A stretch of DNA of 64,000 nt. Source: Flavobacteriaceae bacterium (GTDB taxonomy: Bacteria; Bacteroidota; Bacteroidia; Flavobacteriales; Flavobacteriaceae). Below, piece after piece: positions 1,877-57,173 of this stretch (position 1 is its first letter; every line of letters begins with the position of its first letter). The position numbers were made by a program, and so were the translations under genes. The stretch lies in NCBI GenBank assembly GCA_013003555.1, contig JABDIV010000060.1, positions 62,001 through 126,000 on the forward strand, in the 5' to 3' direction. The notes under the pieces were generated by a model that saw only the letters and a program-made list of their open reading frames with translations, searched no databases and was not told where the DNA came from.

Positions 1877-3522
1877 CGAATGTTTTGGTTACGGGAGCGG
1901 ATGGCCAACTTTCGAGCTGTTTTGAAGACTTGTCACACTCTTGTCCCGATCTTAATTTTGTATATAAGACCATCGACCAACTCGATATAACCAATACCGA
2001 TGAGATCGAGAATGTGTTTTCAGAAATCTCCTATTCGTTTTGCGTAAATTGTGCAGCTTATACGGCTGTAGATCTTGCAGAATCCAATGAAGAGTTAGCG
2101 ATGAGTGTAAACGCTGATGGAGCAGCTAATCTTGCCAGACAGTGCAAAAAAACAGGCACGATCCTTATTCATATTTCAACCGATTTTGTTTTTGACGGCA
2201 ACCAGCATCAACCCTACACTGAACATGATCAACCCAATCCGGTGGGTGTCTATGGTGCCAGTAAATTAAAAGGCGAATACGAAGTTCAAGATATTCTTGA
2301 TGAACATTACATCATCAGAACCTCTTGGTTGTATTCTGAACATGGTAATAATTTTATGAAGACTATGCTTAGGTTAGGAGTGGAAAGGGATGAATTGAGC
2401 ATAGTAAATGACCAAATCGGCATACCTACTTACGCAAGAGATCTGGCCGAAGCGATAATCAAAATCATTCTGTCCGGGAAAAATGCATTCGGACTTTATA
2501 ATTTCAGCAATTCAGGAGAAACAACATGGTTTGATTTTGCCAGGGCTATTTTCGATAAATCGGATACGGATATTGCGCTGAAACCAATCTCCTCACGTGA
2601 GTATATTACAGCGGCAAAACGGCCATCATTCAGTGTTCTGAATAATGATAAAATCAAACAAACATTCCCGGGAATTAAAATTAAACCCTGGCAAGAAAGC
2701 CTGAATCAAGCACTAATCAATATAAATATGAATACACTTCTTCAAACAGCTGTGACGGCATCTATCGAAGCCGGAAAGGCCATCATGGAGGTATATGATG
2801 GCGAGTTTGCAGTTGAATATAAAGATGACAAATCTCCGCTCACTCTTGCCGACAAAAACGCCAATACTATAATTAACCGGCATCTTGTCACTACCGACAT
2901 TCCGATTATAAGTGAAGAGAACAAACAGATAGATTACAGCACCAGAAAATTATGGGATATATGTTGGGTTGTTGACCCTGTTGATGGAACAAAAGAATTC
3001 ATAAAACGAAATGGCGAGTTTACCGTAAATATTGCACTGGTAAAAAATGGAAAACCTCAATTGGGCGTGATCTATGTTCCTGCAACCATGGAATTGTATT
3101 ACGCCAACACCAGAGAACAGAAAGCATTTAAGGTAAAGCTCCATGATCATCAGGTAGAGATAGATTATATTTTGAAGCATGGCAAACCTCTAAATCCGAA
3201 AGATAAAAACCAGTTAACACAAGTGGTGGGCAGCAGGTCACATATGAATGAAGAAACCCAGCAATTTATTAAAGAACTTGAATCAAAGGGTGATAAGGTA
3301 GAAATAGTAAGTAAAGGTAGTTCGTTGAAATTTTGCCTTGTTGCCGAAGGGAAAGCCGATGTTTACCCAAGGTTTGCCCCAACCATGGAATGGGATACTG
3401 CAGCTGGCCAGGCTATTTGTAATGCCGTAGGCATCGATGTTATTAACCAGGAAACCAATAGCCCGTTAGAGTACAATAAGGAAAATTTGCTCAATCCCTG
3501 GTTTCTGGTAACAAAGCAATAG
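1873..3522 (+). CDS. rfbD: RmlD-CysQ fusion: dTDP-4-dehydrorhamnose reductase joined to 3'(2'),5'-bisphosphate nucleotidase
   Basis: One uninterrupted frame of 549 codons encodes two complete enzymes. Residues 1-285 are RmlD, which reduces dTDP-4-keto-rhamnose to dTDP-L-rhamnose: GADGQL at 8-13, STDFVFDG at 102-109, and Tyr127/Lys131 in YGASK. Residues 286-549 are CysQ, which removes the 3'-phosphate of PAP, the by-product of sulfotransfer: SEEN, DPVDGT at 368-373, and WDTAA at 507-511, the metal-binding motifs of the inositol monophosphatase superfamily. The CysQ half begins with an in-frame ATG at 2728, where a stand-alone cysQ would start, and there is no linker. The fusion may be real, or free CysQ may also be made from 2728. 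A one-base error near 2700 in the assembly would also hide a stop, since the next frame has TAA just before 2728. cysC, cysD and cysN lie downstream. Confidence 0.9.
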   Translation: MTNVLVTGADGQLSSCFEDLSHSCPDLNFVYKTIDQLDITNTDEIENVFSEISYSFCVNCAAYTAVDLAESNEELAMSVNADGAANLARQCKKTGTILIHISTDFVFDGNQHQPYTEHDQPNPVGVYGASKLKGEYEVQDILDEHYIIRTSWLYSEHGNNFMKTMLRLGVERDELSIVNDQIGIPTYARDLAEAIIKIILSGKNAFGLYNFSNSGETTWFDFARAIFDKSDTDIALKPISSREYITAAKRPSFSVLNNDKIKQTFPGIKIKPWQESLNQALININMNTLLQTAVTASIEAGKAIMEVYDGEFAVEYKDDKSPLTLADKNANTIINRHLVTTDIPIISEENKQIDYSTRKLWDICWVVDPVDGTKEFIKRNGEFTVNIALVKNGKPQLGVIYVPATMELYYANTREQKAFKVKLHDHQVEIDYILKHGKPLNPKDKNQLTQVVGSRSHMNEETQQFIKELESKGDKVEIVSKGSSLKFCLVAEGKADVYPRFAPTMEWDTAAGQAICNAVGIDVINQETNSPLEYNKENLLNPWFLVTKQ

Positions 3523-3527
3523 CATCA

Positions 3528-3983
3528 TTGGCCCAATATAAAACCGAATCTCATTTTAGAAGCCTTGCCAAGGGGATATCCTGGCGAATTATCGCGACAG
3601 CAGATACAATTCTTGTCGTTCTTTTCGTCACTTGCCTTAGTGGTGGATGTAGTTTGGAAAACGCCATTAAAATCGGCCTTTTTGAATTCTTGATTAAATT
3701 GGGGATATATTATGTTCATGAGAGGATCTGGCAAAGAGCCTATACCGATGGGGTGGTAACAAAACGAGAATCTCTATATAAATCATTGACCTGGCGTCTT
3801 GTGGCAACCACCACCACCTTTATAATATCGGGAGCAGTGCTGGAGCGATTTGATGAAATTGCACTCTATATTGCCCTTACCGAATTATTCACGAAATTTG
3901 TTTTATTCTATTTTCATGAGCGCTTATGGCTCAGGATTCCATTAGGAAAAATTAGAAGGCTATTCATTAAAAAGCAGCTTTAA
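3528..3983 (+). CDS. DUF2061 membrane protein with two tandem copies of the domain
   Basis: A 151-residue membrane protein starting at TTG 3528, five bases after the previous stop; no ATG lies near. It is built from two similar halves. Each starts with a SLxKxxxWRxxAT pattern (residues about 12-24 and 85-97), continues with a hydrophobic helix, and ends in a charged helix with HERIWQR or HERLWLR. That is the DUF2061 repeat, giving about four membrane segments in the inner membrane. The function is unknown. It sits between cysQ and cysC and overlaps the cysC start codon by one base, so a role in handling sulfate, PAPS or PAP is a reasonable guess from position only. Confidence 0.85.
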   Translation: MAQYKTESHFRSLAKGISWRIIATADTILVVLFVTCLSGGCSLENAIKIGLFEFLIKLGIYYVHERIWQRAYTDGVVTKRESLYKSLTWRLVATTTTFIISGAVLERFDEIALYIALTELFTKFVLFYFHERLWLRIPLGKIRRLFIKKQL

Positions 3984-53161: not shown

Positions 53162-54697
53162 TTAAAATTTGAAACTAAACCCTGTGTAAACCCCGATAGT
53201 GTAGGGTTTAAAATTACCTGAAGTATCCTTAAAGGTATTCAACTGATACTTAAATACAGGTTCCAGATTCAAATTAATACGTTTGGAAACTTTATATTTC
53301 ATTCCCATCCCAAGATTAGCGCTAAAGCTCGTTGAGTTTATATTAGACGCCTCACCCAGTTCGTTTCGCACGCCCTGGAGGGATGAATAAACTTTATTTT
53401 CATTTAAAATAAGTGTGCTCATACCACCAATCACACTTAATCCTAATTTCTTATCGGTTATTTTATATTCCATTTCAAGAGGGATCTCGATAAAACCGAG
53501 TTGCTGATCGATTGAGGATTCGATATTGGCAGCTACTACACCAGGAACCTGTGCCACATTGAGACCATTAACGCTTAGGAAAGCTAAATCCATATTTGCT
53601 GCATTCAGGTTCACATTTCTCAATGGCTTATCATCGATCGTTGGCTGGATATTATTGTAAACAATAACGTCGTTGGTTCGATATCCTAATTTCATCTGAT
53701 TGATTCCGGCTCTTAAAGTAAATTTATCGTCGAGATCATAACTCGCCGCTATACCATAATTCATATTGATTTCGCCTGACCGGGAATTGTTAACAAATTG
53801 CTCATCAATAGCCGAACCATTGCCGAACGAATTGAAATAAACGGGAGCAACATGAGGAGCTACACCCCATCTGTTCTTTCTGGCTTCCTCCTCTTCTTCG
53901 ATTATCTCCTCCTCCTCAATTTGGGCAGCCACGGCTTCTTTAATATCATCCTTGGCCTCATCAACAGCAGCAGGATTTTCCTCGGTATTGATCAGGGGTT
54001 CTTCTTGAGATGTTTCGTCCATTTGGGCGACACGTGAATCCTTTATCTGGCCCTGTTCTTTCAACAGTTCATTGGCCTTTTGCTCTGCCTGATTAGATAA
54101 CGGGTCATCTACAATATCAGACTGTTCATTTTGATCTACGGCAACGGCGTCTTGCACAGTACCAGTCGTGTCGTTTTTCAGAAGATCATCTTTTCGATTC
54201 TGAATTACTGCTTTAACAGCATCTGAATCCTGATTTAATGTCCTTTTATTAGAACCTGACTCGTCAGTTATAACGGTATTTTGGAGATCAGACTCATTGT
54301 CTAGAGAGGTTTTATCACCCTCAGCAACAATGGTGTCATCGCGATCGGTCTTATCAAGATCAACAGGAGAAACCGGTTGATTTTGAACATTACCTGGCCT
54401 ATCACTTTCACCTGAATTATCAGGTGAGACCGGATCAAGGCCTGAATCTTGATCAACAACTTCCGGAACCGGTTGAGTTTCGGCATCAGAATTAATAAAT
54501 ATGGAGCCAATAGACACCAATATAAGAATACCGGCAGCTATTCCTGCAATTTTCCACCAGATAGGGATGGCTTTGCGCGGCTGTACGTCTTGATTAAGCT
54601 GTGTTGAAATCGAATCCCAGACCGACGCATCGGGGGAGGCTTCAAATCCCTTGAGATTTTCTTTAAACAGCTTATCGATATTATTTTTATTACTCAT
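53162..54697 (-). CDS. Single-pass membrane protein with C-terminal outer-membrane beta-barrel, co-encoded with an ECF sigma factor
   Basis: A 511-residue protein that starts at ATG 54697, one base within the sigma factor's stop. Residues 1-44 are a short cytoplasmic domain (KLFKENLKGFEASPDASVWDSI), 45-68 one membrane helix (no signal peptidase site), 69-276 a long acidic, Asp/Glu/Asn/Gln-rich linker with a run of Glu at 261-271, and 277-511 a beta-barrel ending in GFSFKF with the C-terminal Phe needed for barrel insertion. This layout would let one chain cross both membranes. The N-terminal part may act as anti-sigma factor. Such proteins next to sigma genes are common in Bacteroidota, but the mechanism is not established. 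Confidence 0.82.
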   Translation of the reverse strand: MSNKNNIDKLFKENLKGFEASPDASVWDSISTQLNQDVQPRKAIPIWWKIAGIAAGILILVSIGSIFINSDAETQPVPEVVDQDSGLDPVSPDNSGESDRPGNVQNQPVSPVDLDKTDRDDTIVAEGDKTSLDNESDLQNTVITDESGSNKRTLNQDSDAVKAVIQNRKDDLLKNDTTGTVQDAVAVDQNEQSDIVDDPLSNQAEQKANELLKEQGQIKDSRVAQMDETSQEEPLINTEENPAAVDEAKDDIKEAVAAQIEEEEIIEEEEEARKNRWGVAPHVAPVYFNSFGNGSAIDEQFVNNSRSGEINMNYGIAASYDLDDKFTLRAGINQMKLGYRTNDVIVYNNIQPTIDDKPLRNVNLNAANMDLAFLSVNGLNVAQVPGVVAANIESSIDQQLGFIEIPLEMEYKITDKKLGLSVIGGMSTLILNENKVYSSLQGVRNELGEASNINSTSFSANLGMGMKYKVSKRINLNLEPVFKYQLNTFKDTSGNFKPYTIGVYTGFSFKF

Positions 54698-55239
54698 CAC
54701 AACGATTGCAAGTTTACTTGCGATTTATAGGTTTCAATTTTGTTTTTTAAAATCATTCGGGCTCTGGCTAGATTCGATTTTGTCGTTCCGGTTGAAATTT
54801 CCAGCATATTTGCTATCTCCTTATGGGAGTAGCCATCGAGAGCATATAGATTAAAAACCAGCCTGTATCTGTCTGGTAATTCCTGAATACAATTAAGCAG
54901 GAAATCAATGCTCAAATCTTCTGTTTCAGCCTCTATGACTAAATCTTCAATTTGTCCTTCATCAACGATATTCAAGACACCCTGGCCTCGGTATCGTTGA
55001 AGAGCGGTATTTATGGTTATTCGTTTGAGCCAGCCTTCAAATGATCCTTTAAAGTTATACTGCTCGATCTTTTTGAAAATTGTAATAAAGGAATCCTGCA
55101 AGACGTCTTCAGCCTCTGCACGATTCCTCGAATACTTCAGGCAAAGGGCGAACATTTTACGGGAAAACATTTTGTAAAGTTCACTTTGCGCTTTCGTATC
55201 ATTTTGTTTGCAATTTTCTATGAGTAATTCTAAACTCAA
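54697..55239 (-). CDS. ECF-type RNA polymerase sigma factor
   Basis: A 180-residue extracytoplasmic-function sigma factor. Start is TTG 55239 (SLELLIENCKQND); an in-frame stop just upstream leaves no ATG. Region 2 contains DVLQDSFITIFKKIEQY and GWLKRITINTALQRY, and region 4 contains LPDRYRLVFNLYALDGYSH and ISTGTTKSNLARARM. Its stop and the next start overlap as TGATG, so the transmembrane/barrel gene is translationally coupled and is the likely regulator. Confidence 0.94.
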   Translation of the reverse strand: MSLELLIENCKQNDTKAQSELYKMFSRKMFALCLKYSRNRAEAEDVLQDSFITIFKKIEQYNFKGSFEGWLKRITINTALQRYRGQGVLNIVDEGQIEDLVIEAETEDLSIDFLLNCIQELPDRYRLVFNLYALDGYSHKEIANMLEISTGTTKSNLARARMILKNKIETYKSQVNLQSL

Positions 55240-55273: not shown

Positions 55274-55696
55274 TTATTGTATTGGTACTTCATAGACCAA
55301 ATACTGATCAACTCCATTCTCATTTATACCTTGCCAAAATTTAAAGATATAAGTACCCGCATTATTCAGCACATGAAAGGTAAATGTACCCTGAATTTCT
55401 TCTTCCGGCAGTGATTCACAAATGATGGTCTCTGTTTCATTGATCACCTGACTGATTACTGCAACTGTCCTTACCTCTCCTTCAGTGAGATAATACAAAT
55501 CGTTAAACGAATGACAGGTTGTTGGTAAAACGTAGGTGTAGTGAATGGTATAAACATCATTGAAATTAACCGTTTCAGGCATATCAATAACCGATCGAAT
55601 GGGTAAGATTTCAAAAGAAATCTGATTAATCGGAGCATCATCAGTAGTGCAATTCCAAGTCACCAAAATAACGAACAATAGGATTAACTTTTTCAT
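55274..55696 (-). CDS. Predicted lipoprotein of unknown function
   Basis: A 140-residue protein with a lipoprotein signal (KKLILLFVILVTWNC, Cys16). The acidic residues directly after (TTDD) resemble the surface-export signal of Bacteroidota lipoproteins. The mature part looks like an all-beta domain (FTFHVLNNAGTYIFKFWQG). Two further Cys residues could form a disulfide. Its position before the sigma factor on the same strand (34 bases) may mean co-transcription. Confidence 0.7.
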   Translation of the reverse strand: MKKLILLFVILVTWNCTTDDAPINQISFEILPIRSVIDMPETVNFNDVYTIHYTYVLPTTCHSFNDLYYLTEGEVRTVAVISQVINETETIICESLPEEEIQGTFTFHVLNNAGTYIFKFWQGINENGVDQYLVYEVPIQ

Positions 55697-55764
55697 ATGT
55701 TCAAAAATTTGAGTCTGTCTTTGTACCTTATAAGATGCTTAAGGTATTAAAAGGTTGCGTTAAA

Positions 55765-56863: not shown

Positions 56864-56992
56864 TTTTATCACGCAACCTTTTTGGTCTTTTTGCATCTAT
56901 TCCTAATAACAGGGAAATATTTGCTATGAACAGGACCCTTTCAGGTTCATTTTTTGAATTGTGAATGACATTTTTTAAACGAACTTTGATAA

Positions 56993-57149
56993 ATTGAAGT
57001 CGAACAGCATCTGCGATAAGTTTTTATGGCAGATGCATATTGAACGATGACTGGCTCACCTTTTAATTCTATCGGATATTATATCTAATAAAATAAAGGA
57101 ATAACGAGTTAATCTGAAAAAGCACCTTTAGCACATAAAGGTGCTTTTT
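56993..57149 (+). ncRNA. Candidate small RNA between recA and trhO
   Basis: The 415 bases between recA and trhO have no gene of note, but the + strand carries promoter-like TTG (56959-56961), 19 bases and GAACTTTG (56981-56988, first base off consensus). Behind it come an eight-pair stem GCATCTGC/GCAGATGC (57007-57036) and a strong terminator stem with a T run (57117-57149). trhO has its own -7 element downstream of that, so the terminator must end another transcript. Only very short reading frames (13 codons at most) are present. Coordinates of the 5' end are approximate. Confidence 0.45.
57117..57149 (+). terminator. Rho-independent terminator upstream of trhO
   Basis: AAAAAGCACCTTTA and TAAAGGTGCTTTTT form a 14-pair stem around a five-base loop and run into more T residues. 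No protein gene on this strand ends before it. Either it closes a small RNA, or it is an attenuator for trhO. Confidence 0.85.
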
Positions 57150-57173
57150 TTATTATCGATTCGGAAGAAATAC

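Follow-up and report, generated by a model that had tools for sequence, protein, structure and literature searches.

A Dma/Reo-type anti-sigma factor predicted to span both membranes, and the putative promoter of its operon, in Flavobacteriaceae

The window analyzed here, a stretch of 64,000 nucleotides from the genome of a marine Flavobacteriaceae bacterium, contains on its minus strand the genes for an ECF sigma factor and for a partner with the features of a Dma-type anti-sigma factor. The sigma factor gene (54697-55239) encodes 180 amino acids and was identified by its ORF, the Pfam domains Sigma70_r2 and Sigma70_r4_2, alignment A2, and its position in a tree. It has a TTG start; the first start is TTG or GTG in 75 of 79 relatives, and such a non-ATG start may keep translation low. 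The partner gene (53162-54697) encodes 511 amino acids, and its ATG overlaps the stop codon of the sigma factor gene by one base (TGATG). The ORF had been listed as 53162-54700 with a GTG start, which is one codon too far upstream: because the relatives begin at the ATG, the real start is at 54697.

The partner starts with a head (residues 1-45, 54563-54697, minus strand, as for all its parts), which carries the motif IDxLF..L..FE..P...VW..I, with Pro22 and Trp27 among its conserved residues, and is presumed to be the sigma-binding part. It is the most conserved region of the protein and is common to sigma-linked partners of other architecture. In an AlphaFold2 model based on 80 sequences the head forms two helices (residues 4-13 and 24-35), which are followed by a single uncleaved membrane helix (residues 46-68, 54494-54562) with a predicted inside location of the N-terminus. 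The next segment is a disordered, acidic and presumably periplasmic linker (residues 69-251, 53945-54493), most of which, from about residue 70 onward, has a pLDDT below 50. A further helix (residues 252-276, 53870-53944; 252-272 in the model) precedes an outer-membrane barrel of eight strands, which ends in Phe (residues 277-511, 53165-53869). The barrel was modeled with a pLDDT of about 90 (residues 277-509), its match to PF13568 is above the Pfam cut-off, and Foldseek matched it to OmpA, OmpW, and NspA. No convincing solved relative of the head was found, the best structure matches covering a short basic stretch of the ribosomal protein eL39.

A scan of GTDB genome contigs with a nine-sequence subset of alignment A1, the full alignment being too divergent, yielded 384 related stretches, of which 80 were kept, many of them from named Flavobacteriaceae. 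Seventy-nine relatives have an intact partner ORF. All 79 contain exactly one predicted membrane helix, a C-terminal Phe, and a sigma factor gene directly upstream of the partner gene, and therefore this anatomy is not due to chance. K/R residues are also richer before the membrane helix, on the head side, than after it in 79/79 relatives. An earlier note on this DNA had proposed a sigma factor next to a partner with a both-membrane anatomy, that is, a cytoplasmic head, one uncleaved membrane helix, and a barrel ending in Phe; the ORFs, Pfam, AlphaFold2, and the relatives all bear this out, the topology being a prediction.

Head and barrel have mean pairwise identities of 65% and 57%, the membrane helix has 55%, and the linker has 18%. 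The partner thus consists of two constrained ends that are joined by a free tether of 143-238 residues, in which no conserved cleavage motif was found among the relatives. The proposal that the linker is long enough to cross the periplasm holds, because 183-208 amino acids would reach about 66-75 nm when fully extended (at 0.36 nm per residue), which is more than enough. The proposed acidity of a linker of 200 residues stands for the window, which has 46 D/E versus 15 K/R in 183 residues, but it is not a conserved property, as the median net charge in the relatives is -9. The gene order recA, lipoprotein, sigma factor, Dma, plsC (reversed), and trpS is intact at 72/79 loci, and most of the others are interrupted by short contigs. 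Among 120 complete Flavobacteriaceae genomes, 104 contain a relative of the partner, with weak matches in two (G050, G058). A mirror-tree analysis, from which the effect of two neighboring genes had been removed, gave correlations of 0.69 for sigma factor and barrel and 0.35 for sigma factor and head, values with too much confounding to be taken as proof of contact.

The first gene of the operon (55274-55696, minus strand) encodes a small lipoprotein, which was found in 77/79 relatives and has no detectable copy at the remaining two loci. The sequence C-T-T-D-D follows its lipobox, two cysteines are invariant (alignments A5 and A6), and the AlphaFold2 model (pLDDT 89.5) shows an Ig-like beta sandwich. 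An identity as NigD was rejected, since none of 57 members gave a Pfam match, and no PDB match was found at an E-value of 0.001 or better.

Upstream of the lipoprotein gene lies a putative ECF-type promoter of the lipoprotein-sigma-Dma operon, CGCAACCTTT-N11-GCATCT (55733-55759, minus strand), which is kept in 65/74 relatives. The gap between recA and the lipoprotein gene holds CGCAACC-N14-G[CT]ATCT at fixed spacing, while the remainder of the gap drifts. The strict core motif, defined as GCAACC-N14-G[CT]ATCT, was present in 65 of the 74 operon gaps, in none of them after shuffling, and at just one other site in the 1.5 million strand-bases of these loci. The window contains two perfect copies, compared to an expectation of 0.05. 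At the level of whole genomes, the motif was found in 91 of the 104 Flavobacteriaceae genomes with a Dma relative, and in none of the 16 genomes without one (Fisher 2e-12; 120 genomes), and a reversed-pattern control gave one match in 120 genomes. Thirteen genomes have a Dma relative and lack the strict motif. Part of this co-occurrence could reflect genome reduction, because genomes without Dma and without the promoter tend to be small, although the motif has a chance rate close to zero.

The genes that are preceded by the motif point to the cell envelope. In a sample of 21 motif-led ORFs for which a start was in reach, a signal peptide or lipobox was seen at the beginning of 16, and two more are the sigma factor gene; the genome G132, in which the number of motifs is inflated by a repeated element, was left out of the regulon count. 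In the genome of the window, the motif leads the gene of a SusD-like lipoprotein on contig C120 (L273, 655-2439, minus strand), and in G002 and G010 it leads genes with nearly identical starts. It seems that the window sigma factor reads the CGCAACC motif, and the sequences make autoregulation and an envelope regulon likely, because the motif precedes the sigma factor's own operon, mostly ORFs for secreted proteins or lipoproteins, and the SusD-like gene. In three genera (L290, L301, L302) the promoter stands before an apparent gene for a very small membrane protein (M..TFLI...GA/SLLV).

The second perfect copy of the promoter (56872-56898, plus strand) points away from recA and is found at the same place in 55/76 relatives. 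Downstream of it, the window has a stretch devoid of long ORFs and then an intrinsic terminator (57117-57151), so that a short transcript is predicted (56905-57151, plus strand). The stretch folds better than its shuffled versions (z -4.05, terminator included), and all its Rfam matches were below the gathering scores, hence no known RNA family was found. A peptide of 30 residues (MKFFKK...NCKADGG), mostly ending in CKADGG, is encoded there in 28 of 56 loci (relatives and window), and its changes show an excess at third positions (3929, versus 2444 and 2125 at the other two). It has no family match in Pfam or NCBIfam. In the window the peptide stops after ten codons, and the resulting ORF MTFFKRTLIN (56965-56997, plus strand) is apparently a short remnant of the version of the relatives.

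Dma1/Das1 of Bacteroides thetaiotaomicron is reportedly the subject of work by Pardue (2024). Dma proteins have been defined by an anti-sigma head, a membrane helix, a disordered tether, a barrel, and a neighboring ECF sigma factor, and deletion of the partner derepresses the sigma factor of Dma1/Das1 and of Dma2/Das2 (PMC13088901). Because of its anatomy, its gene coupling, and its homology, the window pair can be placed by sequence in the Dma/Reo family. A profile of its head matches most of the Dma-like proteins that were collected from the Bacteroidaceae, mostly with E-values of 1e-4 to 1e-10, and the barrels of the window group and of the Bacteroidaceae align with a hhalign probability of 99% (E 3.5e-18). 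Two Bacteroidaceae-like loci, which were reached through DUF4943 (L176, L177), have the published layout of B. thetaiotaomicron dma2, namely sigma factor, Dma, DUF4943, and, fourth, a gene at the position of DUF4858, an assignment by position only (PMC13088901). The window shares with Dma1/Das1 and Dma2/Das2 the N-terminal anti-sigma domain, the single helix, the disordered tether, the C-terminal barrel, and the adjacent ECF sigma factor; in contrast, its operon has other companions and another place (recA, lipoprotein), and its sigma factor belongs to another clade. In the tree this sigma factor is related to the Das clade of the Bacteroidaceae but lies outside of it, and therefore the function is carried across a deep split. 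No experiment on the window protein or on any Flavobacteriaceae relative was found in the literature. Cell-surface signaling of the FecR type was rejected, since Pfam revealed neither a FecR nor a TonB-receptor domain in the partner.

The EcfO-Reo pairs of Bacteroides fragilis and Phocaeicola vulgatus are similar in having an anti-sigma factor whose chain is predicted to cross the periplasm and to end in an outer-membrane barrel, and a lipoprotein gene (nigD, M0N98_03762), numbered beside the sigma factor gene and under sigma control, whereas the window lipoprotein lacks a Pfam NigD match and has a single small Ig-like domain (PMC9308784, PMC13114119). The Reo protein of P. vulgatus was predicted in 2022 to be periplasm-spanning with a barrel, and was described in 2026 as spanning five compartments (PMC9308784, PMC13114119). 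The EcfO regulon is released when transposons insert into Reo, and toxins that damage the envelope induce it as well; in P. vulgatus, both the toxin BcpT and Bd-A induce the pair, and bacteroidetocin A inhibits BamA (PMC9308784, PMC13114119). This is consistent with a protein that monitors the seating of its own barrel.

The anatomy of the partner, its coupling to a sigma factor gene, its homology, the promoter, and the co-occurrence of promoter and pair are established as far as sequence comparison goes; binding and repression of the sigma factor, the signal, and proteolysis are what we infer. As a whole, we regard it as quite probable that a Dma/Reo pair is encoded here, in which the head holds the sigma factor, barrel and tether report on the outer membrane, and the sigma factor drives the CGCAACC regulon. 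The Dma head would hold the ECF sigma factor at the inner membrane. The BAM machinery would insert the barrel into the outer membrane, and barrel and tether together would report whether this membrane is in good condition. Upon a failure of barrel seating or a loss of outer-membrane integrity, the head would free the sigma factor, probably once the unprotected linker and, subsequently, the membrane helix have been cleaved. The freed sigma factor would read CGCAACC-N14-G[CT]ATCT and thereby induce its own operon, with the surface-type lipoprotein, itself, and Dma, as well as the short recA-divergent transcript and a few envelope genes (lipoproteins, SusD-like, barrel proteins). That the state of the outer membrane might be passed on to the sigma factor, as the earlier note had suggested, is the best reading of the anatomy, the gene coupling, and the homology, because of the effects of deletions, insertions, and toxins in the Dma/Reo relatives. 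The mechanism is essentially the published Dma/Reo model, and the class was already known; new compared to it are the promoter, the regulon, the transcript on the recA side, and split systems with related heads.

Three other explanations have been considered. The adjacent lipoprotein might be the actual sensor, which would be exposed at the surface, bind the barrel from outside, and report lipopolysaccharide or envelope damage. In enterobacteria, RcsF works with OmpA-type barrels, which is a loose parallel. In nearly all relatives the operon begins with the lipoprotein gene, the protein is of a fast-evolving surface type with D/E after the lipid-bearing cysteine, and its distances track those of the sigma factor beyond two neighboring control genes (partial r 0.43). 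However, it could equally be a product of the regulon, like the NigD lipoproteins for EcfO-Reo (PMC13114119), and the two loci without a detectable copy, together with L017, where it is encoded downstream of the Dma gene, speak against a sensor role, so that we find it rather doubtful that it is the sensor. It is less probable still, and in our view unlikely, that the linker is cut in normal cells, so that anti-sigma factor and barrel would work as two separate proteins, free in the inner and the outer membrane, respectively, and the spanning chain would be a mere precursor. The linker sequence is almost unconserved, and split relatives exist, also on contig C79 of the same genome, in which a short head-TM anti-sigma factor is followed by a secreted protein, sometimes a PF13568 barrel. 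But the fused form with its terminal Phe is kept in all 79 relatives with a linker of at least 143 residues, and split and fused systems have sigma factors that are mostly found in different parts of the tree.

A porin or adhesin that is made under sigma control and does not inhibit, with the head as an unusual export or anchoring segment, would account for the common barrel fold and for the location of the partner within an operon with a conserved promoter. It is nevertheless highly improbable, as the head is the most conserved region, is joined to unrelated outer parts (barrel, no barrel, VWA/YfbK) beside related sigma factor genes, and has Bacteroidaceae homologs that are anti-sigma factors (PMC13088901, PMC9308784). 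An orphan porin was rejected because of the conservation of the head and its sharing across architectures.

The Dma/Reo reading describes a rare design, in which a dual-membrane anti-sigma factor would link the state of the outer membrane to transcription in one chain. Since in the family Flavobacteriaceae the promoter can be read from sequence alone, tests of the regulon, of its autoregulation, and of the signal become feasible in non-gut Bacteroidota. In the RpoE-RseA system of Escherichia coli, an ECF sigma factor is likewise held by an inner-membrane anti-sigma factor, and the envelope regulon of this sigma factor includes small transcripts. In contrast to the predicted reach of the window partner, RseA does not extend to the outer membrane, and the protease DegS reads the barrel signal. 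We tentatively propose, as a possibility on the lower side of even, that the Dma-controlled sigma factor of Flavobacteriaceae governs a compact regulon for envelope stress. An RNA or micropeptide arm would be part of it, in the form of the conserved short recA-divergent transcript, which in many genera encodes the 30-residue peptide (MKFFKK...NCKADGG), and a surface lipoprotein would feed back on the barrel. If true, this would parallel, in the Bacteroidota, the sigma-E response and its small RNAs and peptide.

Many Bacteroidia, as well as further families of their phylum, possess the head, which stands in at least three architectures: fused to a barrel, as a short head-TM protein with a separate secreted protein, and together with VWA/YfbK. 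Among the separate secreted proteins, those of L123 and L140 match PF13568 and that of L144 does so weakly, while in L020, L152, and L168 a signal peptide and the C-terminus suggest a barrel. In a quick tree, the sigma factors beside head-bearing partners form a common group, mostly separate from the remaining ECF factors of the window genome (support 94); two background ECF factors fall just outside this group, with L163. Fused and split forms require at least three changes in this tree, which has few firmly supported branches. The coexistence of both versions, even in one genome, offers a natural route to ask what the physical link adds. At the split locus of the window genome (L168, C79:95000-100500), a sigma factor gene precedes the gene of a head-bearing anti-sigma factor of 264 amino acids, and a separate, predicted secreted protein of 376 amino acids is encoded downstream. 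In L156 (67-2787, minus strand) the same kind of head is fused to carboxypeptidase-regulatory, VWA, and YfbK_C domains, and there is no barrel. Dma3 of B. thetaiotaomicron shares the idea of tether and barrel, but there the sigma factor itself continues into the membrane helix and a head was not detected, whereas the window encodes two proteins (PMC13088901). Such a form is present in the Bacteroidaceae locus L208 (1498-3201, minus strand), where an ECF sigma factor is fused with a membrane helix and a weakly matching barrel, no head being detected. The ORF of 557 amino acids in L216, also from the Bacteroidaceae (2277-3950, plus strand), is likewise Dma3-like, an ECF sigma factor fused with a membrane helix and without a detected head.
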